Part shown: positions 9,721-37,680 of the stretch, one piece after another
Position numbering within the stretch: the stretch's first letter is position 1
How the letters are laid out: the number at the start of each line of letters is the position of its first letter
Assembly: GCF_041381155.1 (NCBI RefSeq)
Contig: NC_091149.1
Span: forward strand, 8,138,609 to 8,202,608
From: Argopecten irradians
Taxonomy: Eukaryota > Mollusca > Bivalvia > Pectinida > Pectinidae
DNA: 64,000 bases
Direction of reading: 5' to 3'
Position numbers and translations under genes: made by a program
The notes under the pieces: model-generated
The model's input: the letters and a program-made list of their open reading frames with translations, nothing else
Databases searched by the model: none
What the model was told of the DNA's origin: nothing

Positions 9721-9779
9721 TAATGCCAAGTAATGTTCTGAATACAGGTTCATTGTTTCTTTTCTGAAGGAATTTTAAT

Positions 9780-12700
9780 ATTAACCTCTAAATCCCCCTA
9801 TTAGGCCCCACCCCTCCTGCCCCCAGGGGTTCAGAGCCAAAATTTATACAAGTTCTGTTCCCCTTCCTCCAAGGATGTTTGTGGCCAAATTTGGTCACAA
9901 TCCAAGCAAAACTCTAGGACAAGTAGCAATTTATAGGATATTTACCTCTATTTCCCCTATTGGGCCCCACCCGTCACCTGCCCCTGGGGGGCCAGAGCCA
10001 AAACTTATACAAGTTCTGTTCCCCTTCTCCGAAGGATGTTTGTGGCCAAATTTGGTTACAATCCATACAGAACTCTATGACAAGTGGCGATTTAAAGAAT
10101 TTACCTCTATTTCCCCTATTGGGCCCCGCCCCTCCTGCCCCCCGGGACCAGAGCCAAAATTTATTACATACTCAATTCTTATTCTCCCAAGGATATCTCT
10201 GGCCAAATTTGGTTACATTCCATGCGGAACTCTGTGACTAGTAGCGATTTAAAGGATTTACCTCTATTTCCCCTATTAGGCTCCGCCCCTCCAGCCCCCG
10301 GGGGGCCAGAGCCAAAATTTTATACAAGTTCTGTTCCCCTTCCCCCAAGGATATTTTGTGGCCAAATTTGGTTCCAATCCCTGCAGAACTCTATGACTAG
10401 TAGCGATTTAAAGGATTTACCTCTATTTCCCCTATTGGGCCCCGCCCCTCCTGCCCCCGGGGGGTCAGTGCCAAAAATTTATACAAGTTCTGTTCCCCTT
10501 CCCCAAGGATGTTTGTGGCCATATTTGGGTACATTCCATTCACAACTCTATGACTAGTAGCGATTTTAAAGGATTTACCTCTTATTTCCCCTATTGGGCC
10601 CCGCCCCTCCTGCCCCTGGGGGATCAGAGCCAAAATTTATACAAGTACTGTTCCCCTTCCCCCAAGGATGTTTGTGTGGCTGATTTTGGTTACATTCCAT
10701 GCCCAAACTCTAGGACAAGTAGCGATTTTTAAAGGATTTACCTCTATTTCCCCTATTGGGCCCCGCCCCTCCTGCCCCCGGGGGGCCAGAGCCAAAATTT
10801 ATACAAGTTCTGTTCCCCTTCCCCCAAGGATGTTTGTGGCCAAATTTGGGTACATTCCATTCTCAACTCTATGACTAGTAGCGATTTAAAGGATTTACCT
10901 CTATTTCCCCTATTGGGCCCCGCCCCTCCTGCCCCTGGGGGGTCAGAGCCAAAATTTATACAAGTACTGTTCCCCTTCCCCCAAGGATGTTTGTGGCTGA
11001 TTTTGGTTACATTCCATGCCAAACTCTAGGACAAGTAGCGATTTAAAGGATTTACCTCTATTTCCCCTATTGGGCCCCGCCCCTCCTGCCCCTGGGGGAT
11101 CAGAGCCAAAATTTATACAAGTTCTGTTCCCCCTTCCCCCAAGGATGTTTGTGGCCAAATTTGGTTACATTTCATTCAGAACTCTACGACAAGTAGCGAT
11201 TTAAAGGATTTACCTCTATTTCCCCTATTGGGCCCCGCCCCTCCTGCCCCCGGGGGTCCAGAGCCAAAATTTATACAAGTTCTGTTCCCCTTCCCCCAAG
11301 GATATTTGTGGCCAAATTTGGGTACATTCCATTCACAACTCTATGACTAGTAGCGATTTAAAGGATTTACCTCTATTTCCCCTATTGGGCCCCGCCCCTC
11401 CTGCCCCTGGGGGATCAGAGCCAAAATTTATACAAGTACTGTTCCCCTTCCCCCAAGGATGTTTGTGGCTGATTTTGGTTACATTCCATGCCAAACTCTA
11501 GGACAAGTAGCGATTTAAAGGATTTACCTCTATTTCCCCTATTGGGCCCCGCCCCTCCTGCCCCCGGGGGATCAGAGCCAAAATTTATACAAGTTCTGTT
11601 CCCCCTCCCCCAAGGATGTTTGTGGCCAAATTTGGTTACATTTCATTCAGAACTCTACGACAAGTAGCGATTTTAAAGGATTTACCTCTATTTCCCCTAT
11701 TGGGCCCCGCCCCTCCTGCCCCCGGGGGGTCAGAGCCAAAATTTATACAAGTTCTGTTCCCCTTCCCCTAAGGATGTTTGTGGCCAAATTTGGGTACATT
11801 CCATTCACAACTCTATAACTAGTAGCGATTTAAAGGATTTACCTCTATTTCCCCTATTGGGCCCCGCCCCTCCTGCCCCTGGGGATCAGAGCCAAAATTT
11901 ATACAAGTACTGTTCCCCTTCCCCCAAGGATGTTTGTGGCTGATTTTGGTTACATTCCATGCCAAACTCTAGGACAAGTAGTGATTTAAAGGATTTACCT
12001 CTATTTCCCCTATTGGGCCCCGCCCCTCCTGCCCCTGGGGGATCAGAGCCAAAATTTATACAAGTTCTGTTCCCCTTCCCCCAAGGATGTTTGTGGCCAA
12101 ATTTGGTTACATTTCATTCAGAACTCTACGACAAGTAGCGATTTAAAGGATTTACCTCTATTTCCCCTATTGGGCCCCGCCCCCCCTCCTGCCCCCGGGG
12201 GCAGAGCCAAAATTTATACAAGTTCTGTTCCCCTTCCCCCTAGGATGTTTGTGGCCAAATTTGGTTACAATCCATGCAGGACTCTATGACTAGTAGCGAT
12301 TTAAAGGATTTACCTCTATTTCCCCTATTGGGCCCCGCCCCTCCTGCCCCTGGGGGATCAGAGCCAAAATTTATACAAGTTCTGTTCCCCTTCCCCCAAG
12401 GATGTTTGTGGCTGATTTTGGTTACAATCCATGCCAAACTCTAGGACTAGTAGCAATTTAAAGGATTTACCTCTATATCCCCTATTGGGCCCCGCCCCTC
12501 CTGCCCCTGGGGGGTCAGAGCCAAAATTTATACAAGTTCTGTTCCCCCTCCCCCAAGGATGTTTGTGGCCAAATTTGGTTCCAATCCATGCAGAACTCTA
12601 TGACTAGTAGCGATTTAAAGGATTTACCTCTATTTCCCCTATTGGGCCCCGCCCCTCCTGCCCCTGGGGGATCAGAGCCAAAATTTATACAAGTTCTGTT

Positions 12701-12940
12701 CCCCTTCCCCCAAGGATGTTTTGTGGCTGATTTTGGTTACAATCCATGCCAAACTCTAGGACAAGTAGCGATTTAAAGGATTTACCTCTATTTCCCCTAT
12801 TGGGCCCCGCCCCTCCTGCCCCTGGGGGGTCAGAGCCAAAATTTATACAAGTTCTATTCCCCCTCCCCCAAGGATGTTTGTGGCCAAATTTGGTTACAAT
12901 CCATGCAGAACTCTAGGACAAGTAGCGATTTATAGGAAAT
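9780..12940 (+). repeat. 158-bp satellite, about 20 copies, partly in a three-unit higher-order repeat
   Basis: Each unit contains ggatttacctctatttcccc, tattgggccccgcccctcct, gagccaaaatttatacaag, gttccccttcccccaaggatg and a variable tail ending agtagcgattt. Starts are 157-163 bp apart. Tail variants let units be typed: a (ccaaatttgggtacattcc), b (gctgattttggttac), c (acatttcattcagaactc). Between about 10.84 and 12.13 kb they run a-b-c three times. Open frames through the array are incidental. Confidence 0.9.
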
Positions 12941-12941
12941 G

Positions 12942-13048
12942 TTGACGGACGGACGGACGGACGGACGGACGACGGACGACGACGGACGACGGACGACGGA
13001 CGCCGCGCCATGACATAAGCTCACCGGCCCTTCGGGCCAGGTGAGCTA
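12942..13048. repeat. ACGG/ACGACGG microsatellite and terminal hairpin
   Basis: Seven or so GACG/ACGG steps pass into CGACGGA steps, followed by a GC hairpin (ggcccttcgggcc, 13026-13038) and gtgagct ends. It is the 3' part of the nested element. Confidence 0.8.
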
Positions 13049-15957
13049 AAAAAAAAACAAACCACCTCGCCCAACACACAAACAACAGATTCATCAAACC
13101 CACTAGGATAGCTACCATTAATTTCCAATCCATCTCCAATAAAAAACCCGAACTGGAACACCTGCTTCACACACTCAAACCGGACATAGTAATAGGTACA
13201 GAAACATGGCTCAACAATAACATCCCATCCCACGAATATTTCCCATCACACTCCTACACAACATACAGGAAAGACAGAACTCCAAACAAAAAAGGACAAA
13301 GCCACGGTGGAGTTCTGATAGCAGTAACAAATGCATACCACTCAGAACATGCAAAAGAACTAGACACAGACAACGAATCTATATATATTAACATCAACAT
13401 GACAAATTCACATAACCTAACAGTAGGCGCATACTACAGACCACCCTCAGACAAAGGAAAATCAATCGAACACCTCGAAGACTCCATAAATAGAATAGGC
13501 CAAAACAATAACACAATAACATACGTCAGTGGAGACTTCAACCTACCCCATATAGACTGGCACACCAACACCACCACCCCAAGCACACCACAACCTAAGC
13601 TACACCAACACCTACTTAACATCATCAATGATAAGTCTCTCACTCAAACGACAGCTTCCCCCACTCGTGGCGAACACATATTAGACCTTACACTAACCAA
13701 TAGGCCATCCATCATCAACAAACAAGAAATATTACCACCACTAGGAAAATCAGACCACGACATAGTTTACACCGAAATTGACGTCCGACTAAAAAAGATC
13801 AGAAGACCACCTAGAGACATCCTCATCTACAATAAAGCCAACTGGGACAACATAAAGACTGACCTTGAACAATTAAATACACAACTGGACGAACGATCAA
13901 ACGACAACATAGAGGAGATCTGGCACTCCTTCAAAACAACACTAAACAAATCCATAGACAAAAACATACCCACCAAGCACATCACACACAAATCCAAACT
14001 CCCTTGGATAACCCGCCCCATTCGCCAACTCATAAACAAATCCAAACGCTTACACAAACAGCATAAATCCAAACCAGAAATCAAACATAAATATAAAGCA
14101 ACAAAATCAGAACTACAAAAACAAACCAGAAACGCATACCTCAACTACCTAGAAAAAATGATAACAGACATACCAATAGACGAACCTCGATCCTCACACC
14201 CTAACAAAAAACACAATCCCAAAAAACTTTTCTCGTACATAAAAACAACTAAGAAAGAGAACTCTGACATCACAGCCCTACGGAAAGACGGACATCTATT
14301 GACGGACACAACTGACAAAGCCAACATCTTAAACCAACAATTCCAGTCTGCTTTCACACAAGAACAGAATACAACCATACCTGACAAAGGACCTTCACCA
14401 CACCCAATTATGCCAGACATCCACATAACACAACAGGGCATACACAAACTACTGAACAATATAAACCCGCATAAAGCAACTGGCCCCCGACAACATCCAT
14501 GGCAGAATATTGAAAGAACTCAAAGACATCACAGCTCCAATCCTTACAAAAAATATTTACATGCTCACTCACCACAGGAACACTTCCCCACGACTGGAAA
14601 ACACGCAAATGTCAATCCCATTTACAAAAAAGGCGACAAATACAATCCCGCAAACTACAGACCAATATCACTCACATGCATCACATGCAAATTAATGGAA
14701 CATATAATCACCAGCGCCACCATGTCACATCTGGAAAACAACAACATACTTTACGACAAACAACACGGCTTTAGACCTTCCAGATCGTGCGAAACCCAAC
14801 TGGCCACGTTCATACACGACCTCACACACAAAACCACAACAACAACACGCAGACAGACATCATAATCATGGACTTTGCAAAAGCCTTTGACAAAGTACCA
14901 CACAAACGCCTTCAGTACAAACTCAAATACTACGGTATCACAGGTAACACACATGCATGGATAACAGATTTTCTTTCACATCGCACCCAGACAGTAATAC
15001 TTGAGGGCAAACACTCACACAAAATACCAGTAACATCCGGAGTCCCTCAAGGAACCTGTCTGGGCCCCATACTTTTCTTAATATATATCAATGACCTACA
15101 TGAATACATGAAACACAGCACCCTTAGACTTTTCGCAGACGATAGTATCATTTACAAGACCATACACAAACAAGAAGACACACAGAAACTACAACACGAC
15201 CTTGACAATGCAGGACAATGGGAACACGACTGGCTAATGCAATTTCACCCCGACAAGTGGCAACGTCATCTCCACTACCACCAAACGCAACAAAATCCAC
15301 CACAACTACACTCTCCATAACCACTCACTTGAACACGTCAAACACAGTAAATACTTAGGCCTCACACTGCAAAACAACCTCCAATGGGACAAACACATAA
15401 ACAACATCACCGCAAATGCAAACAGAACACTAGGTTTCCTAAAACGAAACCTCACAATCAATTCACCACACATTAAAGAACACGCATATAAAGCACTTGT
15501 CAGACCCAAACTTGAGTACTGCTCCTCTATCTGGGACCCACACAATACTGGCCAAATACAACAAATAGAAAAAACTCAACGCAGAGCAGCAAGATATGTA
15601 CAAAACAGGTATCATAACACTTCTTCAGTCTCAGACATGTTATACACACTCCAATGGCCAACACTACAAACACGCCGTCTACAATCACGACTCATCCTCC
15701 TATATAAAATCACACACCATCTCGTTGCCATCAACCCAGAACAATACCTAACACCTGTAGACACCCGCACTAGACACACACATCCCTATGCATACAGACA
15801 CATCGCCGCCACAAAGGATACATTTAAGTACTCCTTTTTCCCACACACCATCACATACTGGAATCTCCTCCCTGTGGCAACAGTACAAAACACTACACTG
15901 GAGGGCTTCAAGGCAAACATAAACAACGTAGCCCTTGAAGCCCCCACTCACAAATAA
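13049..15957 (+). pseudogene. Retrotransposon AP endonuclease and reverse transcriptase (frameshifted)
   Basis: The open frame begins just after the nested insertion, well upstream of the first ATG at 13399. Endonuclease motifs are GTETW (about 13193), SGDFNLPHIDW (about 13528-13560) and SDHD (about 13750). Reverse transcriptase motifs are YRPIS (about 14657), FAKAFDKVPH (about 14873), SGVPQGTCLGP (about 15037) and the catalytic FADD (about 15130). The C-terminal part runs from KYLGLTLQ to the stop at 15957. Homology jumps frame near 14488, 14546, 14606, 14847 and 15258. Frames stay open nonetheless because the strand is so A/C-rich that stops are scarce. There is no RNase H. A reverse transcriptase of this type would copy its own RNA by target-primed reverse transcription; this copy cannot. 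Confidence 0.9.
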
Positions 15958-18957: not shown

Positions 18958-19930
18958 ATGGAAATTGAAAATTACGAAACAAACACAAACGGGAGGGAAC
19001 TAGGTAAACGGTTTAGCGCACATTCCTGCCTCGTCTTCGACGAACTTCGAAGATTTGGCCAGCTTTGTGATGCTGTAATCAAGGTGGACCATCAGGAGTT
19101 CCCGATCCACAGGGCCATCATGTCAGCGAGCAGTCCTTACTTCAGAGCCTTATTCACGAACGCGCTGGACGCCGTGGAGAAACGGGAGGTGGAAATTCCG
19201 GGAGTGACTGCCGATATTATGCAAATTATTATAGATTATGCCTACACCCGTCGCGCGACCATCGACGAGAAGAACGTAGAATGCCTACTTCCGGCAGCGG
19301 ACCAGTTCCTGGTGCATGGCCTTGTGAAGAGATGTTGCGACTTCCTCGCCGGGGAGCTGGAGGCACAGAACTGTATCGGCATTCACAACTTCGCGCGTCA
19401 CTACTTTTGTCCAAATTTAGAACGAGTTTCGTATCGCTATCTGATGCACAACTTCAGTGAGGTTGTCGCCACTAGTAACGAATACACAGACCTCTGTGTA
19501 GAAGATGTGTTTGAAATATTATCATCCGATGACCTCAACGTGAAAAGTGAAGAAATGGCGTTCGCCGCTTTGCTGAGCTGGATTGACTACGACTCCGAGA
19601 ACCGGAAGTGCCACATTCCGGGCCTTCTACGAGCCGTCCGGTTAGGTCTGCTCTCCACTCAGTTTTTCGTTGAAAAAGTCAAAGCCCATCCGTACATTAA
19701 GGACAATGAACAGTGCAAGCCTCTTGTTATCGAAACCCTCAAGTTCCTGTACGATCTGGACATGGATGAGGACAAGGATTTAGATATAACCAACCCTCTG
19801 GCGCGTCCCCGGGTACCACATGAGGTGATGTTTGTAGTGGGTGGCTGGAGCGGCGGGTCTCCGACAAACATCGTGGAAACCTACGACATGCGGGCAGATA
19901 AGTGGATCGTTTGTGATACTGGTGATGAAG
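18958..19930 (+). CDS. KLHL10: KLHL10 exon 1: BTB, BACK, start of kelch 1
   Basis: 973 nt ending in phase 1 at gatgaag|gtaaat. It encodes residues 1-324. Reading through the donor meets a stop after GKYD, confirming that this is an exon end. Confidence 0.93.
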
Positions 19931-22900
19931 GTAAATACGATTAATTGGAACGAGCCCACTCCCATGTGTGCGTCAATCTGATTAAAATACAGATCCTTAT
20001 AACCACTCCGTTAAATACAGGATCTGAGAACATCCCATAAAGGGTCATGTTCGGATGACCTTTTTCTCGCGTGTACTTCAGATCAAATGCATTTTCTACA
20101 CATTATTATGTCAATTGATAACTCCATTTCGTCACAGTATATACATATTGTATAACATTTAGCTTTGTTGTGCTTTTTGGGCGAGATGACTACGTACATT
20201 AAAATAATTCGGACAGTTTTTCAAACTATTTCGTCCCTAGTCAAGATTTTGGCAGTACCGTTTTCATTGGCCATTTCAAAGGTCATCTTGACGTGACCCC
20301 TAATGGAATGTTATCAGATCGTAGAGATAATAAGGATATGTATTTTAATCAGATTGGTGTGTACGTATGAAATGTATTTGCAATTAACAGGTACTAAATA
20401 GAAATCGCTTTCTAGTTACCTGAAAAAATTAACAGGATTTTTGCCATACATTGCGCTGACAAATAATTATAGTACGCGACCGTAGCGCCTAAGCGGTTGT
20501 TAACCTGTTCTAAAAGTCGTTCACGCACTTTTTCCCGCGCTATAATTTCAGAAAGTTGTTCTATCCCTACTACATGTAGTTAGATGTGCCTTGTTAAGTT
20601 TTTAAAAATATCAATAGCGGTAATTAAAAACTCCAATATTTTATTCTGTATTAGATCATTAATACAGTCTATTAGTGTGTTGGCCCTGCAGATAGGGCGT
20701 TAGAATTGTACCTGCTGTCCCTATTGCATGATCGTAAAAGGCTTCTAAATTTAGGATCTTATCTTTTCTCTTCTTCCTAACTGACTTTATCTTTCCTAAT
20801 GCCTCCCTTGGCACCGCCTCACTTTTGGCCTTGAGTTGAGCGTTTGCCCCTGTGTGGAAGGCTCTGGGTTCTGTCCCCTGGCCGAAACACACCAAAGTCT
20901 ATGAAAGTGGTAGTTACTGCTCCTGCTTTATAGCGCTCAGCATACAGGGAGTGGGACGACTGGTTCGCCCGTTGTCAGTATAATATGACCGGGTGGGATG
21001 GGCAACAGTTCCACTATACAAGATGATACAACATGAATATACCGCAGTCTCCCAAAACATGCACCCAGCACAACATACACGCAGCACACCGCATAAACGA
21101 GAGGTCCTGTAAAAGGGGCGGGTCACCGGTCTCTTGTCATAACCTCTATATCCATATCAATATAACAAAATTCCAATGATACATTGATTACTATTTCTGG
21201 TAAAATTTGTAATTATATGTTCTTTGTTCCGTATACGTAGCTGCCGTAGTTTTTCATACCGGAGACCCAGGTTGGATTCCTGCTAGGTCGGGCACTCGAC
21301 AAGAACTTGTATTTTCTTATACAAACCATGTGTATGCGAAAGAATCAAAATATGCACATTTATTCCAGGTCCTCGAGCTTACCACGGAACTGTCGCTATA
21401 GACAAGAAAATCTACGTCGCCGGAGGTTTTGACGGCGTCGAGTATTTCAACAGCGTGCGATGTTTTGATCCGGTCACGAAAAAATGGTCCGAAGCGGCAC
21501 CCATGAACGCCAAAAGGTATCTAAAAATAAGCCTGTCCCTCTCTTGTCACAAAGAATGAATCTCTGAATTTTTTCCAAATTACCTATCTTCTTTTGTATA
21601 GACGATTACTTTGGCGGGTCAATATTTTATATAATATATTCATCAAATTTTCACAATAATAGTGCATCGAAAAATCGCGAAAGTAATTTTCACGAAAACA
21701 GATTTATACAGTATCTCTTTTAAATGTTAATCCTGCTTTTTTTTTTTTTTTTTTTTTTTGGCGCGCGCTAGAGAAATTGATCAATTAAGCGATTTAAAAA
21801 CAACATATATGTTCATTCAAAAACTAGGGTTGGACTTTATATTTCTGGTTTCTTACATACACTTATGGAATGCATTCGACATCATAACTCGTTAATACTG
21901 TTTTTTTATATCGTTTCATTTATTTCAATGATATGGCAGCGTAACATTACATCTATTCTCCAAACCAGCATTCGTCCAATAATATCCGGATATTAACGGG
22001 GCATTTATATACACTTCTCCAAACCGAAACCTCTCTAAACTGGCCAAATATATATCATATCACACGCATGATGATTTACAGAAATTCCACCTTAACAATC
22101 AGAATAACGATTCATACCGCGATATGGAGCTTAGAGTTATATCACATGCATGATGATACTTTACATGGATATACCGTGGCTGATAGGGAAATATATCTCT
22201 ATCTTACACAGGAGGGTGTAAGACAGCTCACACGCGCTAGACAATAACGTGACGTCATCAATACATGCGGCGTAACTGCAGCGCGCATTGTAAATGACGT
22301 CATCAATATTGACGCATAACGACGTTCCTGAGGTAATGGCGCGATGAAAAAGCTGGATACCAAGTGGAATTTCGTAATTTTTTTCTACTAAGTAAAGAAT
22401 CAAACATGGGTCTGTGAAGTGGACAGGGATATCTCAACCCTTTTGAAAGATTTTGGCCGTCAACCCTCGGCAAGCCTCGGGTTGACCAGCCAAAATCTTT
22501 CACTCGGGTTGATATATCCCTGTCCACTTCACAGACCCATGTAAGATTCTATTAATCTTTCCTTGCAGATGTTATGTGAGTACAGCTGTTCTCAGAGGAT
22601 GTATCTACGCCATGGGCGGATATGACGGTCACGTACGACTGAACACGGCGGAACAATACTTTCCTGGCCGGAATCAATGGACCGTGATAGCACCAATGAA
22701 TCATCAACGTAGCGATGCCAGCGCCACCTCTCTCAATGGTAAATATAGATCATGCTTCCTTGGTAAAATGTCATGGTAACCGACTATATATCCAGAAGTT
22801 ACAACAATCGGTTAACGTTAGTGATCAATCGATCTGGATTTTGAAGAAGGAAAAAAGATAGAAATTATTCAACAGTTGCTGTAAATTGTAAAAATTTATT

Positions 22901-25900
22901 GAAATGCCAAATATTGTGAATGCGCCATATCTTTTATCATAAACTTTTGCATATTATGGAGTTATCTTACCTTGCTGGTATGTATTGATTATGACGTCAT
23001 GTTTTTACGAACACAATGTCACTCCTCACGGAATATTAAAAAAAAAAACCGACAAAATAAATTCCTGTCCGCAAGGGAAATAATTCTGTAAATTGCAAAG
23101 ATGGATTATCTATCAATACTTAGGAGTCTAGCGCCACAATTCATTCGCCTAGTTCTTGAAACCGTTCTTGAAATTTTAGGTAAAATCTACATCTGCGGCG
23201 GATTTAACGGACAGGAATGTTTGAACTCCTCGGAGTATTACGACCCAAACACCAATCAGTGGACGTGCTTTGCGCCCATGCGCAATAGACGTAGTGGTGT
23301 GGGCGTGATCTCTTATGGAGACCAGATATACGCACTGGGCGGATTTAATGGTGCGGCTCGGATGAACACAGGGGAGCGGTATAGTCCGCTGACGGATACC
23401 TGGCAGACGATACCGATGATGTACAATCCCAGGTCAAACTTTGGTATAGAGGTAATACATTATAGACTTAGGTGTTCTACAGGGGGACACATAATAGACT
23501 TTGGTGTTCCACAGGGGGACACATTATAGACTTAGGTGTTTACAGGGGGACTCATTATAGACTAAGATGTTCTTCATGGGGGACACATAGTAGACTTAGG
23601 TGTTTTACAGGGGGACACATTATAGACTTAGGTGTTTTACAGGGGGACACATTATAGACTTAGGTGTTTTACAGGGGGACACATTATAGACTTAGGTGTT
23701 CTACAGGGGGACACATAATAGACTTAGGTGTTCTACAGGGGGACACATTATAGACTTATATGTTCTACAGGGGGACACATGATAGACTTAGGTGTTTACA
23801 GGGGGGCACATAATAGACTTATGTGTTTACAGGGGGACACATGATAGACTTAGATGTTCTACAGGGGGACACATTATAGACTTAGGTGTTCTACAGGGGG
23901 ACAATGGTTGACTTAGGTGTTTTACAGGGGGGCACATAATAGACTTAGGTGTTCTACAGGGGGACACATTATAGACTTAGGTGTTCTACAGGGGGACACA
24001 TGGTTGACTTAGGTGTTCTACAGGGGGACACATGATAGACTTAGATGTTCTACAGGGGGACACATTACAGACTTAGGTGTTCTACAGGGGTAACTTTGGT
24101 ACAGAGGTAATTCATTATAGACTAGATGTTCTACAAGGGGACACATTGTAGACTAGGGTGTTCTACAGGGGTAACTTTGGTACAGAGGTAATTCATTATA
24201 GACTTGATGTTCTACAGGGGGACACATTGTAGACTAAGGTGTTCTACAGGGGTAACTTTGGTACAGAGGTAATTCATTATAGACTAGATGTTTAGGGAAA
24301 CATTTTATTCTACTAGGGGACACATTGTAGACTTAGGTGTTCTACAGGGGTAACTTTGGTACAGAGGTAAATCATCATAGACTAGATGTTCTACAATGAG
24401 ACATATTGTAGACTAAGGTTTTCTACAGGGGTTAGTTTGGTACAGAGGTAATTCATTATAGACTAGATGTTCTACAAGGAGACACATTGTAGACTAGGTG
24501 TTCTACAGGGGTAACTTTGGTACAGAGGTAATTCATTATAGACTAGATGTTCAACAAGGGGACACGTTATAGACTTTGGTGTTCTACAGGGGTAACTTTG
24601 GTACAGAGGTAATTCATTATAGACTAGATGTTCTACAAGGGGACACATTGTAGACTTAGGTGTTCTACAGGGGTAACTTTGGTACAGAGGAATTCTTTAT
24701 AGACTAGATGTTCTACAGGGGACACATTGTAGACTTAGGTGTTCTACAGGGAGGTAATTCATTATAGACTAGATGTTCTACAAGGGGACACATTGTAGAC
24801 TTAGGTGTTCTACAGGGGTAACTTTGGTACAGAGGTAATTCATTATAGACTAGATGTTCTACAAGGGGACACATTGTAGACTTTGGTGTTCTACAGGGGT
24901 AACTTTGGTACAGAGGTAATTCATTATAGACTAGATGTTCTACAAGGGGACACATTGTAGACTTTGGTGTTCTACAGGGGTAACTTTGGTACAGAGGTAA
25001 TTCATTATAGACTAGATGTTCAACAAGGGGACACATTGTACATTGTAGAAAGGTGTTTCTACAGGGGTAAACTTTGGTACAGAGGTAATTCATTATAGAC
25101 TAGATGTTCTACAAGGGGACACATTGTAGACTTAGGTGTTCTACAGGGGTAAACTTTGGTACAGAGGTAATTCATTATAGACTAGATGTTCTACAAGGGG
25201 ACACATTGTAGACGAAGGTGTTCTACAGGGGTAACTTTGGTACAGAGGTAATTCATTATAGACTAGATGTTCTACAAGGGGACACATTGTAGACTTAGGT
25301 GTTCTACAGGGGTAACTTTGGTACAGAGGTAATTCATTATAGACTAGATGTTCTACAAGGGGACACATTGTAGACTTAGGTGTTCTACAGGGGTAACTTT
25401 GGTACAGAGGTAATTCATTATAGACTTATGTTAGACACTTTAGATGTTCTACAGGGGACACATTTAGACTTAGGTGTTCTACAGGGGTAACTTTGGTACA
25501 GAGGTAATTCATTATAGACTAGATGTTCTACAAGGGGACACATTGTAGACTTAGGTGTTCTACAGGGGGACACATTGTAGACTTAGGTGTTCTACAGGGG
25601 TAACTTTGGTACAGAGGTAATTCATTATAGACTAGATGTTCTACAAGGGGACACATTGTAGACTTAGGTGTTCTACAGGGGTAACTTTGGTACAGAGGTA
25701 ATTCATTATAGACTAGATGTTCTACTAGGGGACACATTGTAGACTTAGGTGTTCTACAGGGGTAACTTTGGTACAGAGGTAATTCATTATAGACTAGATG
25801 TTCTACAAGGGGACACATTGTAGACTAAGGTGTTCTACAGGGGTACACTTTGGTACAGAGGTAATTCATTATAGACTAGATGTTCTACAAGGGGACACAT

Positions 25901-28900
25901 TGTAGACTAAGGCGTTCTACAGGGGTAACTTTGGTACAGAGGTAATTCATTATAGACTAGATGTTCAACAAGGGGACACATTATAGACTTTGGTGTTCTA
26001 CAGGGGTAACTTTGGTACAGAGGTAATTCATTATAGACTAGATGTTCTACAAGGGGACACATTGTAGACGAAGGTGTTCTACAGGGGTAACTTTGGTACA
26101 GAGGTAATTCATTATAGACTAGATGTTCTACAAGGGGACACATTGTAGACTAAGGTGTTCTACAGGGGTAACTTTGGTACAGAGGTAATTCATTATAGAC
26201 TAGATGAATTCTACAAGGGGACACATTGTAGACTAAGGTGTTCTACAGGGGTAACTTTGGTACAGAGGTAATTCATTATAGACTAGATGTTCTACAAGGG
26301 GACACATTGTAGACTAAGGTGTTCTACAGGGGTAACTTTGGTACAGAGGTAATTCATTATAGACTAGATGTTTCTACAAGGGGACACATTGTAGACTAAG
26401 GTGTTCTACAGGGGTAACTTTGGTACAGAGGTAATTCATTATAGACTAGATGTTCTACAAGGGGACACATTGTAGACTTAGGTGTTCTACAGGGGTAACT
26501 TTGGTACAGAGGTAATTCAGTATAGACTAGATGTTCTACAAGGGGACACATTGTAGACTAGGTGTTCTACAGGGGTAACTTTGGTACAGAGGTAATTCAT
26601 TATAGACTAGATGTTCTACAAGGGGACACACATTGTAGACTTAGGTGTTCTACAGGGGTAACTTTGGTACAGAGGTAATTCATTATAGACTAGATGTTCT
26701 ACAAGGGGACACATTGTAGACTTAGGTGTTCTACAGGGGTAACTTTGGTACAGAGGTAATTCATTATAGACTAGATGTTCTACAAGGGGACACATTGTAG
26801 ACTAAGGTGTTCTACAGGGGTAACTTTGGTACAGAGGTAATTCATTATAGACTAGATGTTCTACAAGGGGACACATTGTAGACTTTGGTGTTCTACAGGG
26901 GTAACTTTGGTACAGAGGTAATTCATTATAGACTAGATGTTCTACAAGGGGACACATTGTAGACTTAGGTGTTCTACAGGGGACACATTACAGACTAGTT
27001 TTCACAGGGGTAACTTTGGTACAGAGGTAATTCATTATAGACTAGATGTTCTACAAAGGGGACACATTATAGACTTTGGTGTTCTACAGGGTAACTTTGG
27101 TACAGAGGTAATTCATTATAGACTAGATGTTCTACTGGGGACACATTGTAGACTTAAGGTGTTCTACAGGGGTAACTTTGGTACAGAGGTAATTCATTAT
27201 AGACTAGATATTCTACAAGGGACACATGTAGACTAGGTGTTCTACAGGGGTAACTTTGGTACAGAGGTAATTCATTATAGACTAGATGTTCTACAGGGGG
27301 ACACATTGTAGACTAAGGTGTTCTACAGGGGTAACTTTGGTACAGAGGTAATTCATTATAGACTAGATGTTCTACAAGGGGACACATTGTAGACTAAGGT
27401 GTTCTACAGGGGTAACTTTGGTACAGAGGTAATTCATTATAGACTAGATGTTCTACAAGGGACACATTGTAGACTAAGGTGTTCTACAGGGGTAACTTTG
27501 GTACAGAGGTAATTCATTATAGACTAGATATTCTACAAGGGGACACATTGTAGACTATGGTGTTCTACAGGGGTAACTTTGGTACAGAGGTAATTCATTA
27601 TAGACTAGATGTTCTACAAGGGGACACATTGTAGACTTAGGTGTTCTACAGGGGTACTACAGGGTAACTTTGGTACAGAGGTAATTCATTATAGACTAGA
27701 TGTTCTACAGGGGACACATTGTAGACTAAGGTGTTCTACAGGGGTAACTTTGGTACAGAGGTAATTCATTATAGACTAGATGTTCTACAAGGGGACACAT
27801 TGTAGACTAAGGTGTTCTACAGGGGTAACTTTGGTACAGAGGTAATTCATTATAGACTAGATGTTCTACAAGGGGACACATTGTAGACTTTGGTGTTCTA
27901 CAGGGGTAACTTTGGTACAGAGGTAATTCATTATAGACTAGATGATTCTACAAGGGACACATTGGACTGGTTCCGGAACTTTGGTACAGAGGTAACATTA
28001 TTGACTGATTCACGGGACACATTGTAGACAGGTGTTCTACAGGGGTAACTTTGGTACAGAGGTAATTCATTATAGACTAGATGTTCTACAAGGGGACACA
28101 TTGTAGACAAGGTGTTCTACAGGGGTAACTTTGGTACAGAGGTAATTCATTATAGACTAGATGTTCTACAAGGGGACACATTGTAGACTAGGTGTTCTAC
28201 AGGGGTAACTTTGGTACAGAGGTAATTCATTATAGACTAGATGTTCTACAAGGGGACACATTGTAGACTAAGGTGTTCTACAGGGGTAACTTTGGTACAG
28301 AGGTAATTCATTATAGACTAGATGTTCTACAGGGGACACATTGTAGACTAAGGTGTTCTACAGGGGTAACTTTGGTACAGAGGTAATTCATTATAGACTA
28401 GATGTTCTACAAGGGGACACATTGTAGACGAAGGTGTTCTACAGGGGTAACTTTGGTACAGAGGTAATTCATTATAGACTAGATGTTCTACAAGGGGACA
28501 CATTGTAGACTTAGGTGTTCTACAGGGGTAACTTTGGTACAGAGGTAATTCATTATAGACTAGATGTTCTACAAGGGGACACATTGTAGACTAGGTGTTC
28601 TACAGGGGTAACTTTGGTACAGAGGTAATTCATTATAGACTAGATGTTCTACAAGGGGACACATTGTAGACTAAGGTGTTCTACAGGGGTAACTTTGGTA
28701 CAGAGGTAATTCATTATAGACTAGATGTTCTACAAGGGGACACATTGTAGACTAAGGTGTTCTACAGGGGTAACTTTGGTACAGAGGTAATTCATTATAG
28801 ACTAGATGTTCTACAAGGGGACACATTGTAGACTAAGGTGTTCTACAGGGGTAACTTTGGTACAGAGGTAATTCATTATAGACTAGATGTTCTACAAGGG

Positions 28901-31900
28901 GACACATTGTAGACTAAGGTGTTCTACAGGGGTAACTTTGGTACAGAGGTAATTCATTATAGACTAGATGTTCTACAAGGGGACACATTGTAGACTTAGG
29001 TGTTCTACAGGGGTAACTTTGGTACAGAGGTAATTCATTATAGACTAGATGTTCTACAAGGGGACACATTGTAGACTAAGGTGTTCTACAGGGGTAACTT
29101 TGGTACAGAGGTAATTCATTATAGACTAGATGTTCTACAAGGGGACACATTGTAGACTTAGGTGTTCTACAGGGGTAACTTTGGTACAGAGGTAATTCAT
29201 TATAGACTAGATGTTCTACAAGGGGACACATTGTAGACTAAGGTGTTCTACAGGGGTAACTTTGGTACAGAGGTAATTCATTATAGACTAGATGTTCTAC
29301 AAGGGGACACATTGTAGACTAAGGTGTTCTACAGGGGTAACTTTGGTACAGAGGTAATTCATTATAGACTAGATGTTCTACAAGGGGACACATTGTAGAC
29401 TAAGGTGTTCTACAGGGGTAACTTTGGTACAGAGGTAATTCATTATAGACTAGATGTTCTACAAGGGGACACATTGTAGACGAAGGTGTTCTACAGGGGT
29501 AACTTTGGTACAGAGGTAATTCATTATAGACTAGATGTTCTACAAGGGGACACATTGTAGACTAAGGTGTTCTACAGGGGTAACTTTGGTACAGAGGTAA
29601 TTCATTATAGACTAGATGTTCTACAAGGGGACACATTGTAGACTAAGTGTTCTACAGGGGTAACTTTGGTACAGAGGTAATTCATTATAGACTAGATGTT
29701 CTACAAGGGGACACATTGTAGACTAGGGTGTTCTACAGGGGTAACTTTGGTACAGAGGTAATTCATTATAGACTAGATGTTCTACAAGGGGACACATTGT
29801 AGACTTAGGTGTTCTACAGGGGTAACTTTGGTACAGAGGTAATTCATTATAGACTAGATGTTCTACAAGGGGACACATTGTAGACGGTGTTCTAAACATG
29901 GGTAACTTTTGGTACAGAGGTAATTCATTATAGACTAGATGTTCTACACATTGAGACACATTGTAGACTTAGGTGTTCTACAGGGGTAACTTTGGTACAT
30001 AGAGTTAATTCATTAAAGACCAGATGTTCTACAAGGGGACACATTGTAGAAAGGTGTTCTTCAGGGGTAACTTTGGTACAGAGGTAATTCATTATAGACT
30101 AGATGTTCTACTAGGGGACACATTGTAGACTTAGGTGTTCTACAGGGGTAACTTTGGTACAGGAGGTAATTCATTATAAGACAAATAGTGTTCTACTAGG
30201 GGACACATTGTAGACTAGGTGTTCACAGGGGTAACTTTGGTACAGAGGTAAATTCATTAATGTAGATAATTGACACGAGATACCATGCTATACATGTAGA
30301 TAATGTATATAACTGATTCTTTGTAGGTAATTAATTTTATACTTTTTGTAGATAATTGACGAGATGATTTTATACTTTGTAGATAATTGACGAGATAATT
30401 TTATACTTTGTAGGTAATTGACGAGATGATATACTTTGTAGGTAATTGACGAGATGATATTATACTTTGTAGGTAATTGACGAGATGATTTTATACTTTG
30501 TTAGGTAATTGACGAGATGATATACTTTGTAGGTAATTGACGAGATGATATTATACTTTGTAGGTAATTGACGAGATGATTTTATACTTTGTAGGTAATT
30601 GACGAGATGATATTATACTTTGTAGGTAATTGACGAGATGATATTATACTTTGTAGATAATTGACGAGATGATATTATACTTTGTAGGTAATTGACGAGA
30701 TGATATTATACTTTGTAGATAATTGACGAGATGATTTTATACTTTGTAGGTAATTGACGAGATGATATTATACTTTGTAGATAATTGACGAGATGATTTT
30801 ATACTTTGTAGGTAATTGACGAGATGATTTTATACTTTGTAGATAATTGACGAGATAATTTCATACTTTGTAGGTAATTGACGAGATGATTTTATACTTT
30901 GTAGGTAATTGACGAGATGATTTTATACTTTGTAGGTAATTGACGAGATGATTTTATACTTTGTAGGTAATTGACGAGATGATTTTATACTTTTTAGAAA
31001 ACTGATGAGATGATTTTATACTTTGTAGGTAATTGACGAGATGGTTTTATACTTTGTAGGTAATTGACGAGATGGTTTTATACTTTGTAGGTAATTGACG
31101 AGATGATATTTGCGATCGGCGGATTCAATGGCGTCACAACCATATTTAACGTAGAGTGTTTCGACAGGACATCAGAAGAATGGTAGGATACTTTTTTCGT
31201 ATAGTCAAACATTAAACGTCATAACATCAGTTATTTCGGTACTGTAAACCACATTAGTTTTTGCGATAGAACTCGACCTCGATTTCAAATGTTACGTGAA
31301 TATTCATTTAAAATGTATATATGAATGCAATATTACCACCAAGAGCCCGTGATCACGAATTTACTCTCTGTATTCGGAAATATGTTGACTATAAACGAAG
31401 ACGCAAAATACAGTAAACTATACGCGAAAGGGTCGCGGTGGCCGAGACAACCCCTCCACTTCTGGGCCGCGAGTTCGAATCCCATGTGGGGCAGTTGCCA
31501 GGGACTGACCGGTTGTCGGTGTTTTTTCTACGGAGACTCCGTTTTTCCTTCACCGTCAAACCTGGCATGCCTTGACATGACCCTCCATGGCTGTTAAAGT
31601 ACTCTCATTTACACTATTACCGCACTGTACCACGTGAATGTTCGCAGGTACCTTTCGTGATATTTGTCAATTTAATTCTTTACTTAATATAGAAATATTC
31701 GTGATTAGTCTTTGGAACAAAGCGCAGTAATGAATCAAAATGTATCATTAAAAAAAGTTTTATCTTAATTGTAGGTTTGACGCAACGGACATGAACATCT
31801 ACAGAAGTGCGCTGAGCGCATGCGTCATCAATGGCCTGCCGAATGTTCATGATTACACTCATAAAGAAAGTAAATTAAACAGGGAAACAGGAAAAGATGA

Positions 31901-31907
31901 AGACTGA
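18958..31907 (+). CDS. KLHL10: Kelch-like protein 10 (six exons)
   Basis: Joined exons 18958-19930, 21369-21516, 22569-22738, 23180-23451, 31091-31182 and 31775-31907 give 1788 nt, 595 residues plus stop, close to the family's usual length of about 608. All phases agree and all introns are GT-AG. Residues about 28-133 are a BTB domain (FGQLCDAVIKVDHQEFPIHR, SPYFRALF), followed by BACK to about 240 and six kelch repeats with GG doublets and a Trp near the end of each (VVGGWSG, VAGGFDG, AMGGYDG, ICGGFNG, ALGGFNG, AIGGFNG). Known KLHL10 proteins bridge CUL3, through BTB/BACK, to substrates bound by the kelch propeller, and are needed for sperm maturation. The start is the first ATG before conserved sequence. 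Intron 4 is an extraordinary satellite that reiterates its own splice sites. The orthologue call is from recognised sequence. Confidence 0.93.
19931..21368 (+). other. KLHL10 intron 1
   Basis: 1438-nt intron. It holds a dispersed repeat copy at about 20665-20930, a possible degenerate tRNA-like segment near 21255-21295, and otherwise AT-rich sequence. Confidence 0.85.
20665..20930 (+). repeat. Dispersed repeat, family S2
   Basis: Shares ttgtacctgctg, tattgcatgatcgtaa, cttcttcct, ttggccttgagttga, gtggaaggct and tatgaaagtggtag with copies at about 49076-49235 and 49236-49640. It is about 260 bp. A SINE is possible but no clear pol III boxes are seen. Confidence 0.6.
21369..21516 (+). CDS. KLHL10: KLHL10 exon 2: end of kelch 1, kelch 2
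   Basis: 148 nt between tattccag|g and aaaag|gtatct. It encodes GPRAYHG...IYVAGGFDG...KKWSEAAPMNAK and ends in phase 2. Confidence 0.9.
21739..21760. repeat. Poly(T) run in intron 2
   Basis: About 21 T followed by ggcgcgcgc. It may be a retroposed poly(A) tail in minus orientation, but no body is identified. Confidence 0.6.
22406..22541. repeat. 136-bp foldback palindrome in intron 2
   Basis: catgggtctgtgaagtggac at the left is answered exactly by gtccacttcacagacccatg at the right. Inner arms (gaaagattttggc and gccaaaatctttc) and a central gtcaaccc/gggttgac also pair. It ends about 28 bp before the exon-3 start. Confidence 0.9.
22569..22738 (+). CDS. KLHL10: KLHL10 exon 3: kelch 3
   Basis: 170 nt between ccttgcag|a and ctcaatg|gtaaat. 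It encodes CYVSTAVL, IYAMGGYDG and NQWTVIAPMNHQRS. Confidence 0.92.
22943..23100. mobile_element. MITE, family G, in KLHL10 intron 3
   Basis: cttttgcatattatggagtt and gattatgacgtcatg, closing with cgcaagggaaataattctgt then aaattgcaaa. It fills about a third of the 441-nt intron and stops about 80 bp before the exon-4 acceptor. Confidence 0.75.
23180..23451 (+). CDS. KLHL10: KLHL10 exon 4: kelch 4 and most of kelch 5
   Basis: 272 nt from attttag|g to tatagag|gtaata, ending in phase 0 with NFGIE. It encodes IYICGGFNG and IYALGGFNG. The last 17 nt plus the donor are the seed of the satellite that follows. Confidence 0.93.
23460..24090. repeat. 32-bp satellite (donor-proximal part of intron 4)
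   Basis: About 19 units of ggtgttctacagggggacac plus attatagactta. These lack the exon-derived segment present in the 81-bp units downstream. Confidence 0.9.
24090..30260. repeat. 81-bp satellite carrying a copy of the exon-4 donor
   Basis: About 75 units of gtaactttggtacagaggta, attcattatagactagatg, ttctacaaggggacacattg, tagactaaggtgttctacag, gg. The period is checked at 28861 to 28942 (81 bp). The first third copies the end of exon 4 and the start of intron 4 (aactttggta-agag|gtaat-cattatagact). The 27-codon period opens the minus strand in many places, with a recurring CPLVEHLVYNELPLYQ; these are not genes. A few units are damaged near 27950 and at the array end. Confidence 0.95.
30300..31110. 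repeat. 31-bp satellite carrying a copy of the exon-5 acceptor
   Basis: About 25 units of ttttatactttgtaggtaat plus tgacgagatga. The last unit is the real intron-exon junction (ctttgtag|gtaattgacgag, exon from 31091). Variants have tagataat instead of taggtaat. Confidence 0.95.
31091..31182 (+). CDS. KLHL10: KLHL10 exon 5: kelch 6
   Basis: 92 nt encoding VIDEMIFAIGGFNG and NVECFDRTSEE, ending in phase 2 at gaatg|gtagga. The first 16 nt are reiterated upstream in the intron. Confidence 0.88.
31429..31610 (+). mobile_element. tRNA-derived SINE in KLHL10 intron 5
   Basis: A box-A-like ggtggccgaga (31436-31446) and box B gttcgaatccc (31473-31483) form a tRNA-like head. It continues with atgtggggcagttgcc, a body with ctccgtttttccttcacc and aaacctggca, and a tail near ctggctgtta. 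A second copy lies at about 48890-49052. It is not a functional tRNA: the acceptor stem and anticodon arm do not fold and the body continues. Confidence 0.75.
31775..31907 (+). CDS. KLHL10: KLHL10 exon 6: end of kelch 6 and C-terminus
   Basis: 133 nt from attgtag|g. It encodes FDATDMNIYRSALSACVING followed by a charged tail (KESKLNRETGKDED) and TGA. The propeller-closing strand is here. Confidence 0.92.
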
Positions 31908-32180: not shown

Positions 32181-33970
32181 TAACTTGTCAGTTATTGATG
32201 TCGACATCTAAACTAAAAGATGTCGACATCTGGTCTTGAATGTGGAAATCAAAGGCCACCCTTTCATAGACCACTGTGTATATGCAGCAAAAGCCATACA
32301 GCAGAGATCGACGTTGATTTTGTTAATTCAAGTTTTTATTTATTTGATTTCAAAATAAAAAAAAATTGTGATCCTGCACATCCCGGCCATGAAACTGTAG
32401 TCTGCGTGTACGTAGCTGTTAGCCCGAGCCAAGGAAGTGTACAACGAATTATTAATATATATAACCGTGGGTTGAAAATTCGTTTCAAAGCTGTGTGTGT
32501 GTTTTGTTGATTGGCATTCGTACCAAGTCCATGTAGTACATACCGTAATATACTATATCAAAAGAATGAATGAAAAAAATGAAAAAAAAAAATAAAATAA
32601 AAAAAAAGAAGATTTTTTTATATTGTATTTTCTTGTGAATCCCGAAAAATACCAGTTACGTAATTTAAAAGCCATAAAGGTCACAGTACAGGTACACAAT
32701 ACACATTGGGAAACCAGCTATACTTGTTAGCTTGGCCTGTCCATATATATACATAAATATTTACATCCCTCGATGCACTTAAATAAAGGCACAACGAATT
32801 TTTGTTACGGTCTTAATGGTCAGATTCAACCTTTGGGCTAAAAATCCTCCAGGGACGCGGTTTTAAACTCCCAACTCGCGATACATCTGCATCTATTTTT
32901 CGTAGTAAAAACATGCGTTTTTTGTAGTCAAACGTAGTAAAAAAAAAGTCACGTGCTTATACCTCATTCATGCCATTGGCCGGAATATACAATTGTATTA
33001 TGGGTAACTTGTGATCACGTGATTTTGTGTTTACTTCCAAATATGGTGATAGTTTGCTTGCCATTTCTTCGGAGAAATTGATTTATTTGAAAATATTTAG
33101 ACTCCAAAATGTCTTTAATATTGCATGCATATCATTTTGACTTGCACATATATGCACTGTTTTACTAAAAATAATGAACTGAATGAGTTATAAAACTGAC
33201 ATTTCCACGTTTTATATATAAATGATATAATACGAATTGACCAATTCAATAGGTCTAACCGTCTAATCTAGGATCAGCGAAGATCGGCTACTCCCGGCTA
33301 AATTCGTAGAATTCTAAATTTATATTTATATATTTTATTACCTGGTTTAGGGTTCAGAACATATACATATAACACAGAGAAAATAAGGCCAAATTATGTA
33401 TAAATACCAGGTCAGAGAAATCACTCTATTTTGGAAGTAAACACACACTCATGTGATCACTAGTTACCCACTAAAACAATTCCATATTTATTTCGGCCAA
33501 TGGCATGAATGAGGTATAATCACGTGACTTGTTTTACTACGTTTTACTACAAAGAACGCGTGCTTTGTACCATTATGGGGGAAATCCTCCGCGGATCGTG
33601 GTTTCATTTCCACCATTTGAAATTGTTAGCAATACTATCATATCATAGTTTATTTTCCATATTATTTCCAAACAAATAGTTATAAGTTTCCGCATAGCCC
33701 ACTTAGCTTTTTGGGAAACTAATACATACATGTATGTACACATATACTATGAAACACGGGCTTATGCTTCCCGCCTGGTAAATTGGGACCTAGGACCTAA
33801 CTCATTATGCTTCGGTAGGTTCCGTACGAAAATGTATCATTTTGTTTCTTCATAGATTGAAAGGTCTCAAGGCCCACTACCAATATTGTGAATTTCATGA
33901 CCCTGGGGTCTCGGGAATTTTCCCCAGGGGATAGGGTCTTTACCATAGTTTATATAGGGAAACACATTCA
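32181..33970 (+). repeat. Foldback arm A
   Basis: Begins gtcagttattgatgtcgaca. Passes through cgacgttgattttgttaatt and tttgcttgccatttcttcgg and ends near ggggatagggtctttaccat. The complement is at 45130-47040. Stretches such as ttcttcggagaaattgattt also recur inverted in arm B. Non-coding. Confidence 0.8.
33682..33723 (+). repeat. Dispersed AAGCTTCC...GGAAGCT repeat in arm A
   Basis: aagtttccgcatagcccact followed by tagctttttgggaaacta; relative of 17064-17104. Confidence 0.7.
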
Positions 33971-35369: not shown

Positions 35370-37680
35370 CACAGGGCTGAGACATATTTATTATTTATTT
35401 GTTTGTTTAAAAGCAAAACATTATTTATAACTGTGCATATCGGAATTTAGGTGACTGTTAGACTTATATATCCTTATTGCCTTCTGCTCATTCTCAACTC
35501 TCATCCATTTGTAAACAATTCAAATTTTAACAAACTTCTTCTCCACAACACGATTTTTCTCATTTTACAGCAAGTACAAACAACAACAATCAAATAACAA
35601 TCATGAATATTTTGTATTGATATCATTTTTTTGCAAATTTTCAGCAAAACAAACATGTTTCAAATTAAATTAGTACACATATTTGATTAATATATTTGAT
35701 CTGCATTCATTATTGAATTTAAAAAAAAACGAAAAAAAAATTATATCATAGCGAAGGTACATGGTTTGTCATTTTAATCAAGGGAGATAAATCCGTTTTG
35801 AAGGCTTTTCCACAAAGTGGAGTGGAAAAGTTAAGATTAATTCACTTCCCATGCATTATTCAACCAAATTTAGCCTGGTACATTTCCTGGTCAACATCAA
35901 TTATAATTTCAACACAAATTAATTAGATGATGTTTCAAGTAATTGTCGAGTATATATACATGAACTTTGACATCTGCCATGGCACAACATGTAATCTTCA
36001 ATTTATCAATGTTTCACAATCAAAGTCTACTCTAAGCCTTCTGTTTCAAATGGTGGAAATGAAAACACGATCCGTGGGGGATTTTCCCAATAATGGTACG
36101 TAGTAAAACAAGTCACGTGATTTTACCTCATTCATGCCATTGGCCGAAATAAATATGGAATTGTATTAGTGGGTAACTAGTGATCACATGAGTGTGTGTT
36201 TACTTCCAAATAGAGTGATTTCTCTGACCTGGTATTTATACATAATTAGGCCTTTTGAAGAAGATCTTATTTTCTCTGTGTTATATGTATATGTTCTGAA
36301 CCCTAAAGCAGGTAATAATATATATAAATATAAATTTAGAATTCTACGAATTTAGCCGGGAGTAGCCGATCTTCGCTGATCTTAGATTAGACGTTTAGAC
36401 CTATTGAATTGGTCAATTCGCATTATATCATTTATTTGCAAAACGTGGAAACGACAGTTTTATAACTCATTTCAGTTCATTATTTATAGTAAAATAATAC
36501 ATATGTGCAAGTCAAAATGATATACATGCAATATTAATAACATTTTGGAGTCTAAATATTTTCAAATAAATCAATTTCTCCGAAGAAATGGCAAGCAAAC
36601 TATCACCATATTTGGAAGTAAACACACAATCATGTGATCACTAGTTACCCATAATGCAATTGTATATTCCGGCCAATGACATGAATGAGGTATAAGCACG
36701 TGACTTTTTTTACTACGTTTTTACTACAAAAAATAGATGCAGATAAATCCCGAGTTTGGAGCTAAAACCGCGTCCCGCGGGAGGTTTTCTAGCCCAAAGA
36801 TTGAATCTGGCCATTAAGACCGTAACAAAAATTCGTTGTGCCTTTATTTAAGTGTATCGAGGGATGTAAATATTTATGTATATATATGGACAGGGCAAGC
36901 TAACAAGTAAAGCTGGTTTCCAAATGGGTATTGTGTATCTGTACTGTGACCTTTTTGGCTTTTAAATTACGTAACTGGTATTTTTCGTGATTTGCAAAAA
37001 AAATGAAATCTTGAAAAAATCACTGTAATATAGTATAGTACGGTATGTACCACATGGACTTGGTACGAATGCTAATCCACAAAGCACACACACAGCTTTT
37101 AAACGAATTTTCAACCCACGGTTATATATATTAATAAATGATTATGGCCAAGAGGATGGAAATTCGTTGTACAAAGCAGAGTCCTTTTGCACTCTAACTT
37201 CCTCAGCTCGGACTCACAGTTACAATGTGTACATATACGCAGGCTACAGCTGCATGGCCGGGATGTGCAGGATCACAATTTTTAATTTTGAAATCAAATA
37301 AATAAAAACTTTTCTGAATTAACAAAATCAACGTCGAACTCTGCTGTGTGGTGCCTTGCTGCATATACACAGTGCCCTATGAAAGCGTGGCCTTTGAATT
37401 CTACTTTCAAGACCAGATGTCGACATCTTTAAGTTTAGATGTCGACATCGATAAATGACAAGTCGGTGTCACACCCGAGCATAAACACGAGTAATCGCCG
37501 AGTTACCGACTTTCTACATAATTATCTTGGAATCATTATGTGGGCAGGTTCATGTGGTAAGTCGACATATTCTTCTGTTTATGTCGACATCTTCCGATAT
37601 GATGTCGGCAACTCGATGGCAGAAATATGCCACCATATTTTCTTTACTTTTTTGTAGGTTTCCAAATATTTTATGCGTAT
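35370..37680 (-). repeat. Foldback arm B
   Basis: Reverse-complement counterpart of 42655-45130. Examples are gcatgcattattcaaccaaa-type sequence at 35855 against ttggttgaataatgcatgg at 44516, and cgacatcatatcgg-type sequence near 37600 against 42730. It ends with gatgtcgacatctttaagtt. Confidence 0.8.

Follow-up and report, generated by a model that had tools for sequence, protein, structure and literature searches.

Intron 4 of KLHL10, in a 64,000-nt window (the whole stretch of DNA that was analyzed; C16:8138609-8202608) of the 846-Mb genome of Argopecten irradians, is very probably made of two abutting tandem arrays, one derived from its own 5' splice junction and the other from its own 3' splice junction, together with a short 32-bp array, and is spliced through its outermost sites. 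The two junction-derived arrays proper (81-bp and 31-bp units) account for 6,925 bp, or 91% of the intron. This structure is real, is larger than first described, has a precedent, and is recurrent in its genome: a preliminary description made from the sequence had recognized the 81-bp donor array and missed both the 32-bp array at 23457-24090 and the acceptor array at 30334-31107. The features of the gene and of its intron 4, in window coordinates, are as follows.

18958..19930, + strand: KLHL10 exon 1, coding part, with BTB, BACK, and the start of Kelch (Pfam BTB 1.8e-28, BACK 4.4e-29; reading frame)
21369..21516, + strand: KLHL10 exon 2 (Kelch_1 8.9e-18; reading frame)
22569..22738, + strand: KLHL10 exon 3 (Kelch_1 1.9e-15; reading frame)
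23180..23451, + strand: KLHL10 exon 4, whose final 15 nt are the exon portion of the 81-bp unit (Kelch_1 1.1e-28; alignment)
23452..31090, + strand: KLHL10 intron 4, 7,639 bp, of which tandem arrays cover 7,560 bp (99%)
23457..24090, + strand: 32-bp tandem array of 19.9 copies, beginning 5 nt inside the donor (tandem-repeat search)
24092..30259, + strand: 81-bp donor-junction array, each unit with 15 nt of exon-4 tail, the GTAATT donor, and 60 nt of intron
30260..30333, + strand: degenerate 31-bp acceptor units, 74 bp bridging both arrays (score 40; shuffle maximum 25, n = 1000)
30334..31107, + strand: 31-bp acceptor array of 25.1 copies, each with the first 20 nt of exon 5 and the acceptor TATACTTTGTAG (tandem-repeat search; alignment)
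31091..31182, + strand: KLHL10 exon 5 (reading frame; joined to exon 4 in the database protein P0002)
31775..31907, + strand: KLHL10 exon 6, including the stop codon (reading frame)

The gene, which spans about 13 kb, is a complete KLHL10, as had been proposed: its 6 coding exons join into 1,788 nt encoding 595 aa with no internal stop, Pfam identifies the BTB, BACK, and Kelch domains, and the closest named protein is kelch-like protein 10 of Pecten maximus (91% identity over 100% of the length).

The claim that the exon-4/intron-4 junction was copied about 75 times and seeded the array is borne out by the pattern counts. Allowing at most 2 mismatches, the junction core AACTTTGGTANAGAGGTAAT has 74 matches in the window, namely the native junction (23437-23456) and 73 near-copies at 24092-30252, and none in 100 dinucleotide shuffles. 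Between 24001 and 30300 we counted 72 intact AGAG|GTAA words (the bar marks the splice position), 69 of which read AGAG|GTAATT, so that dozens of AG|GTAATT donors do lie downstream of the true one. The 81-bp unit is a copy of 15 nt of exon 4 (14/15 identical), rather than the 17 nt first assigned to it, and of 66 nt of intron 4, and as a whole it is collinear with the native junction at 23437-23518 (72 identities, 9 mismatches, and 1 gap). As for the check that had been advised, whether the likeness to the exon-4 tail exceeds chance, an alignment of 60 nt of exon 4 plus 60 nt of intron with two consensus units scored 104, against a maximum of 35 among 1000 shuffles. The reported period of 27 codons is nominal: with a stricter script than the 73-match pattern, which recognized 68 donor copies, 43 of the 67 gaps measured 81 bp. 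We claim no evidence for extra conservation of the donor word, which varied in 0 of 735 cells versus 34 of 2100 elsewhere (35 units from 54 anchors); when the two columns holding over 5 variants each were dropped, 8 of 2030 cells varied elsewhere (Fisher p 0.12).

The 3' end of the intron shows an acceptor counterpart of this design. The final copy of the 31-bp array is the true 3' splice site and the start of exon 5, and the exon-5 head is identical to the unit at 19 of 20 positions, a likeness equaled by 0 of 1000 shuffles. AG|GTAA is present in 18 of the 25 copies, the native one counted, the rest being 6 AG|ATAA and 1 AG|AAAA. The 81-mer and the 31-mer show no significant likeness (262/1000 shuffles equal), and a kinship of the 32-bp and 31-bp units is not supported either (668/1000). 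When all 10 junctions of the gene were searched as 24-mers with up to 4 mismatches, the exon-4/intron-4 and intron-4/exon-5 junctions gave 71 and 23 matches, native counted, and the other 8 gave 1 match each. As a control, 400 random 24-mers from outside the three largest arrays gave a median of 1 match, with at least 10 in 2.75% of cases and a maximum of 49; some of them match often because the window has other repeats.

The same genome encodes three KLHL10 paralogues (B, C, and D, with identities by exon of 66-79%, 59-69%, and 48-63%, respectively), all with an intron at the same codon position and phase as intron 4 (468, 137, and 1,373 bp). Given this shared position, the repeats did not create intron 4, which is itself probably not new; Tandem Repeats Finder (TRF) detected no tandem array in the corresponding intron of any of the three. 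We compared 38 junctions of 19 introns from the four KLHL10 genes, each with its own intron and 200 shuffles, leaving out two introns of paralogue D with unclear splice sites. No shuffle equaled the native score at four junctions, namely the donor and the acceptor of intron 4 in the window gene and the donor of the corresponding intron in B and in D, and 1 of 200 did so at the exon-3 acceptor of C, where a 57-bp array of 17.5 copies repeats the exon head 17 times, the native head counted. Intron 4 of D contains two additional copies of the exon-4 edge with the donor intact, and that of B two that both lack the donor GT. The first of the B copies and the two D copies agree with their own exon at 15/15 positions and with the other exons at 10 to 13/15, so these three copies are later events, or conversion has kept them alike.

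Joining of the outermost splice pair gives a clean 595-aa protein. Read-through from exon 4 meets an in-frame stop at 23527, ahead of every decoy donor, and the prediction that use of a decoy would ruin the protein is therefore upheld. The N-F-G-T-E codons that the preliminary description placed in frame are present locally, but the frame from exon 4 ends before the decoys are reached, so their in-frame continuation is irrelevant. Among the 25 acceptors, only that at 31091 yields the full protein, whereas 24 of the 24 upstream copies yield early stops. The expected product is found as the database protein P0002 (541 aa, from a 1,962-bp contig), which corresponds to KLHL10 residues 55-595 with 2 substitutions, spans all five KLHL10 junctions, and reads SNFGIE|VIDEM at the exon 4-exon 5 joint. 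Among the 80 of 174 candidates that were scored, the P0002 matches at 82-99% identity are all exons of this window, and no intronless copy with more than 79% identity was detected outside the KLHL10 locus. Because these exons are spread over a gene of about 13 kb, the contig most likely represents spliced RNA, presumably drawn from an RNA assembly.

Searches of the whole genome located the 23 matches of the 81-bp array entirely at the KLHL10 locus, and the 31-bp array at its own locus and at three weak matches (68-70%). A dispersed satellite family was rejected on these grounds, although the similarity search ignores very common words, which limits the single-locus result for arrays. One of the weak matches, on C11, is a 28-bp array of 76 copies (L033 45-2188) that ends in the CAP-Gly exon of dynactin-1 (DCTN1) and whose unit consists of the exon's own first 20 nt and the acceptor; at the inspected ends of the other two (L034 and L035, on C2 and C13), an exon-derived unit was not seen by eye. 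A search for three consecutive copies of the motif TTGTAGGTAA retrieved, among the matches listed, at least 5 arrays on C1. One of them, a 41-bp array of 10.8 copies (L036 1477-1912, reverse strand), ends in an exon of the mTOR kinase (MTOR) and is built from that exon's own head and acceptor, one touches an unrelated exon, and three have no exon recognized by eye. The touched exon, which we take to be TMTC-like (no Pfam match at 0.1), was discarded as an acceptor case, since 276 of 2000 shuffles equaled its alignment. In this shuffle test of five arrays, the four positive cases were KLHL10 intron 4, DCTN1, MTOR, and KLHL10-C exon 3, all aligning from exon base 1 with 0 of 2000 shuffles equal.

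These four acceptor arrays differ in what became of the AG. AG|GTAA is kept in 55 of 64 DCTN1 copies and in 8 of 12 scored MTOR windows, whereas in KLHL10-C exon 3 only the native copy has an AG (1/18). All upstream windows of DCTN1 (63/63) and MTOR (11/11) would break the frame, these window counts being approximate because of some shifted matches and one MTOR window outside the array. Twenty kelch-family loci were scanned for 15-mers, taken from the matched stretch extended by 60 nt, that recur in 2 or more additional copies, and 4 of the loci were flagged: the window gene (L014), paralogues B (L016) and D (L028), and a kelch locus on C6 (L027 2526-3993, L071 1-942). The last has an ordinary AGGT-rich 59-bp intronic array, with the next exon's head absent from the unit by eye. 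In all, L045 was judged not exon-derived by shuffles, and L048, L066, L070, and L027/L071 by eye. A separate 28-bp array on C3 (L067-L068, C3:62412656 to beyond 62422500) has units with TTTCAG|GTAAGT, a word that joins a canonical acceptor and donor; the genome has 315 forward three-unit matches to it, all those among the matches listed lying in this array, and no exon was recognized at its 5' end, the 3' end being outside the stretch inspected. Motif match counts (206/198 with a reversed control of 5/288, and 315/2 with a control of 2/36) reflect mainly single large arrays and do not serve here as evidence of enrichment.

Several observations weigh against the derivation of intron 4 from its own junctions or against the generality of such a process. 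Exon 4 alone is a weaker match to the 81-mer than exon and intron together, 6 of 1000 shuffles being equal, or 1 of 1000 when the final 60 nt of the exon were aligned. No repeated exon-edge word was found in 16 of the 20 kelch-family loci scanned, the remaining 33 of the 38 KLHL10-family junctions were negative (at least 30 of 200 shuffles equal), and 4 of the 5 AG|GTAA arrays listed on C1 are apparently not exon-derived; the process is therefore not general. None of the 72 decoy donors scores below the true donor with a donor matrix, correct joining of exons 4 and 5 is known from one database protein, P0002, and the length of the array is known from one assembly.

The dependence on one assembly raises the question of a collapsed or inflated artefact, as long near-identical arrays assemble poorly. 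The units are distinguished along the array by substitutions and indels, however, the locus lies on a 34.5-Mb contig, and the same design occurs at loci on C1, C5, and C11, which makes an artefact improbable. Still less credible is that ordinary intronic minisatellites reached both exons and resemble the exon ends by chance. Minisatellites abound in the genome, several inspected arrays are not exon-derived, and the result for exon 4 alone leans in that direction; yet the exon matches of 14/15 and 19/20 start exactly at the junction, the 81-bp unit copies the native junction collinearly over its whole length, and no shuffle in 1000 equaled either the exon and intron sides jointly or exon 5 alone. 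A further explanation is that the intron itself was born by tandem genomic duplication, in which an uninterrupted exon containing AG|GT was duplicated, the spacer became the intron, and the intron was then multiplied. Zhuo et al. are said to have described, in 2007, human introns arising from tandem arrays. AGGTAAT is present at both ends of intron 4, and tandem duplication of a proto-splice site is among the routes of intron gain described in PMC2891723 and PMC10809524. The three paralogues, whose introns share the position and phase of intron 4, argue the other way, as do the lack of a match between the 31-mer and the exon-4 tail (795/1000 shuffles equal) and the unrelated 32- and 31-bp units. 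Moreover, the intron ends have no likeness to the flanking exon ends beyond AG|GT, with GTAAT alone shared at the donor, and we regard this origin as highly improbable.

We favor the view that the arrays of intron 4 grew from its own splice junctions, starting from tandem duplications with breakpoints straddling an intron end. Such duplications would be harmless as long as the outermost donor and the last acceptor were used, since the coding sequence then stays complete, and slippage and unequal exchange may subsequently have multiplied the junction copies. Correct splicing would depend on a preference for the exon-proximal donor, and decoy products, which bear stops, would be open to nonsense-mediated decay. 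Because the decoys are no weaker than the true donor, strength alone would not account for the right choice, and position must matter instead, as it seems to in human ABCA7. Because of the AG|GTAA copies in the 3' array, splicing to a decoy acceptor of this type would remake a GAG|GTAATT donor, and we hypothesize that this donor could then be joined to a copy further on.

This last step leads to a different account of how splicing copes, compatible with the same origin of the arrays: recursive splicing, in which the acceptor array is a ladder of AG|GTAATT ratchet points along which exon 4 steps to exon 5. AG|GTAA is frequent in the KLHL10 (18/25), DCTN1, and MTOR windows, and an acceptor adjoining a donor is the anatomy of ratchet points as presented in PMC8605326. 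Of the two arrays found without the motif, that of KLHL10 intron 4 has AG|GTAA, and in that of KLHL10-C 17 of 18 copies lack the AG, which the native copy keeps. Against recursive use, no splicing intermediates were seen, 7 of the 25 KLHL10 acceptor copies do not remake a donor, and the AG|GTAA content was selected, DCTN1 having been found by similarity to the KLHL10 array and MTOR by the motif itself. In addition, a step of 31 nt is below the size of a spliceable intron, so that steps would skip copies. Recursive splicing through AG|GTAA copies is a tentative alternative of low probability on the mode of splicing; it fits the acceptor array, with its AG|GTAATT words, better than the donor array. 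A broader idea, that splice junctions are a recurrent satellite seed in this genome and that splicing is blind to the copies since decoys either lose the AG or act as AG|GTAA ratchets, seems to us somewhat doubtful. If it were true, both the dozens of donors in KLHL10 intron 4 and its ladder of recursive acceptors would be of the intron's own making. The contrast between lost AG and AG|GTAA among the four acceptor arrays is suggestive only, because DCTN1 and MTOR were found via likeness to the motif.

Other parts of the window are repetitive as well. A non-LTR (long terminal repeat) retrotransposon-like stretch occupies 9288-15954; it includes an open reading frame (ORF) at 9288-9764, in which we presume a PHD-like pattern and a 2A peptide-like DTELNPGP string, and another at 13045-14862 with endonuclease-reverse transcriptase matches in Pfam, and between the two ORFs lies a 157-bp array of 20 copies (9780-12937). 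Two pairs of long inverted repeats (32183-33766 / 45250-46823 and 35838-37607 / 42727-44544, 93-94% identity) lie near CGACAA-type arrays with 8/16/24-bp repeats. Three ORFs with VWA domains (Pfam) are found at 49762-54276, a 21-bp threonine-rich coding-type repeat at 50546-50789, and a direct tandem duplication of 1.44 kb with 99.1% identity at 60249-63128.

KLHL10 intron 4 constitutes a natural and extreme test of splice-site choice, with about 70 donors and about 24 acceptors, near-identical and in closely similar sequence contexts, competing with one correct pair. It also points to a simple way for introns to lengthen by repeating their edges, and it makes the tolerance of such growth testable, as one genome displays several copy numbers (2 extra, about 11, 18, and 76).

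The nearest precedent for the donor array is the variable number tandem repeat (VNTR) in intron 18 of human ABCA7, so that the earlier statement that no case on this scale was known does not hold. As presented in PMC5954066, the first GT of its 25-bp unit serves as the exon-18 donor, and copy numbers run from about 12 to 427; a decoy donor leads to retention of a single unit at a low level (2 +/- 1%). The KLHL10 array likewise flanks its exon, apart from the 32-bp array, made of units from the intron start, that intervenes after exon 4, and has a unit that contains the exon's donor, in a copy number within the same range of tens to hundreds (PMC5954066). Unlike that of KLHL10, the ABCA7 unit is C-rich and its array varies in length among people, and in contrast to ABCA7 as described there, KLHL10 intron 4 is amplified at both ends and carries 15 nt of exon in its donor unit (PMC5954066). 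Among the literature matches listed, which leave subscription papers uncovered and are weak evidence, we found no precedent for an intron amplified at both ends or for an array seeded by an acceptor and exon head. The dual-specific sites of UBC and VCX3A, as PMC10809524 depicts them, resemble the KLHL10 arrays in having tandem AGGT usable as donor or acceptor; in those genes the intron measures a whole number of units, and donor and acceptor come from one and the same repeat (PMC10809524). We rejected a UBC-type intron for KLHL10, as 7,639 bp is no multiple of 81 or 31 and the donor and acceptor units are unrelated.

Like the ratchet points of Drosophila, the KLHL10 acceptor copies place an acceptor next to a donor that would be remade, with AG|GTAA in 18 of 25 (PMC8605326). 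The Drosophila sites are described as well conserved, lie mostly in long introns, and occur singly or in pairs within an intron in the examples of that source (PMC8605326), whereas those of KLHL10 recur every 31 bp and stem from repetition of the edge of the exon itself. Finally, minisatellites at exon-intron boundaries are described within human segmental duplications, where they alter splicing (PMC2812944). In that account they average four 30-bp units, so that KLHL10 has about 6x (acceptor) to 18x (donor) more copies (PMC2812944), and, unlike in the human cases reported there (PMC2812944), the sole KLHL10 product seen is unchanged.

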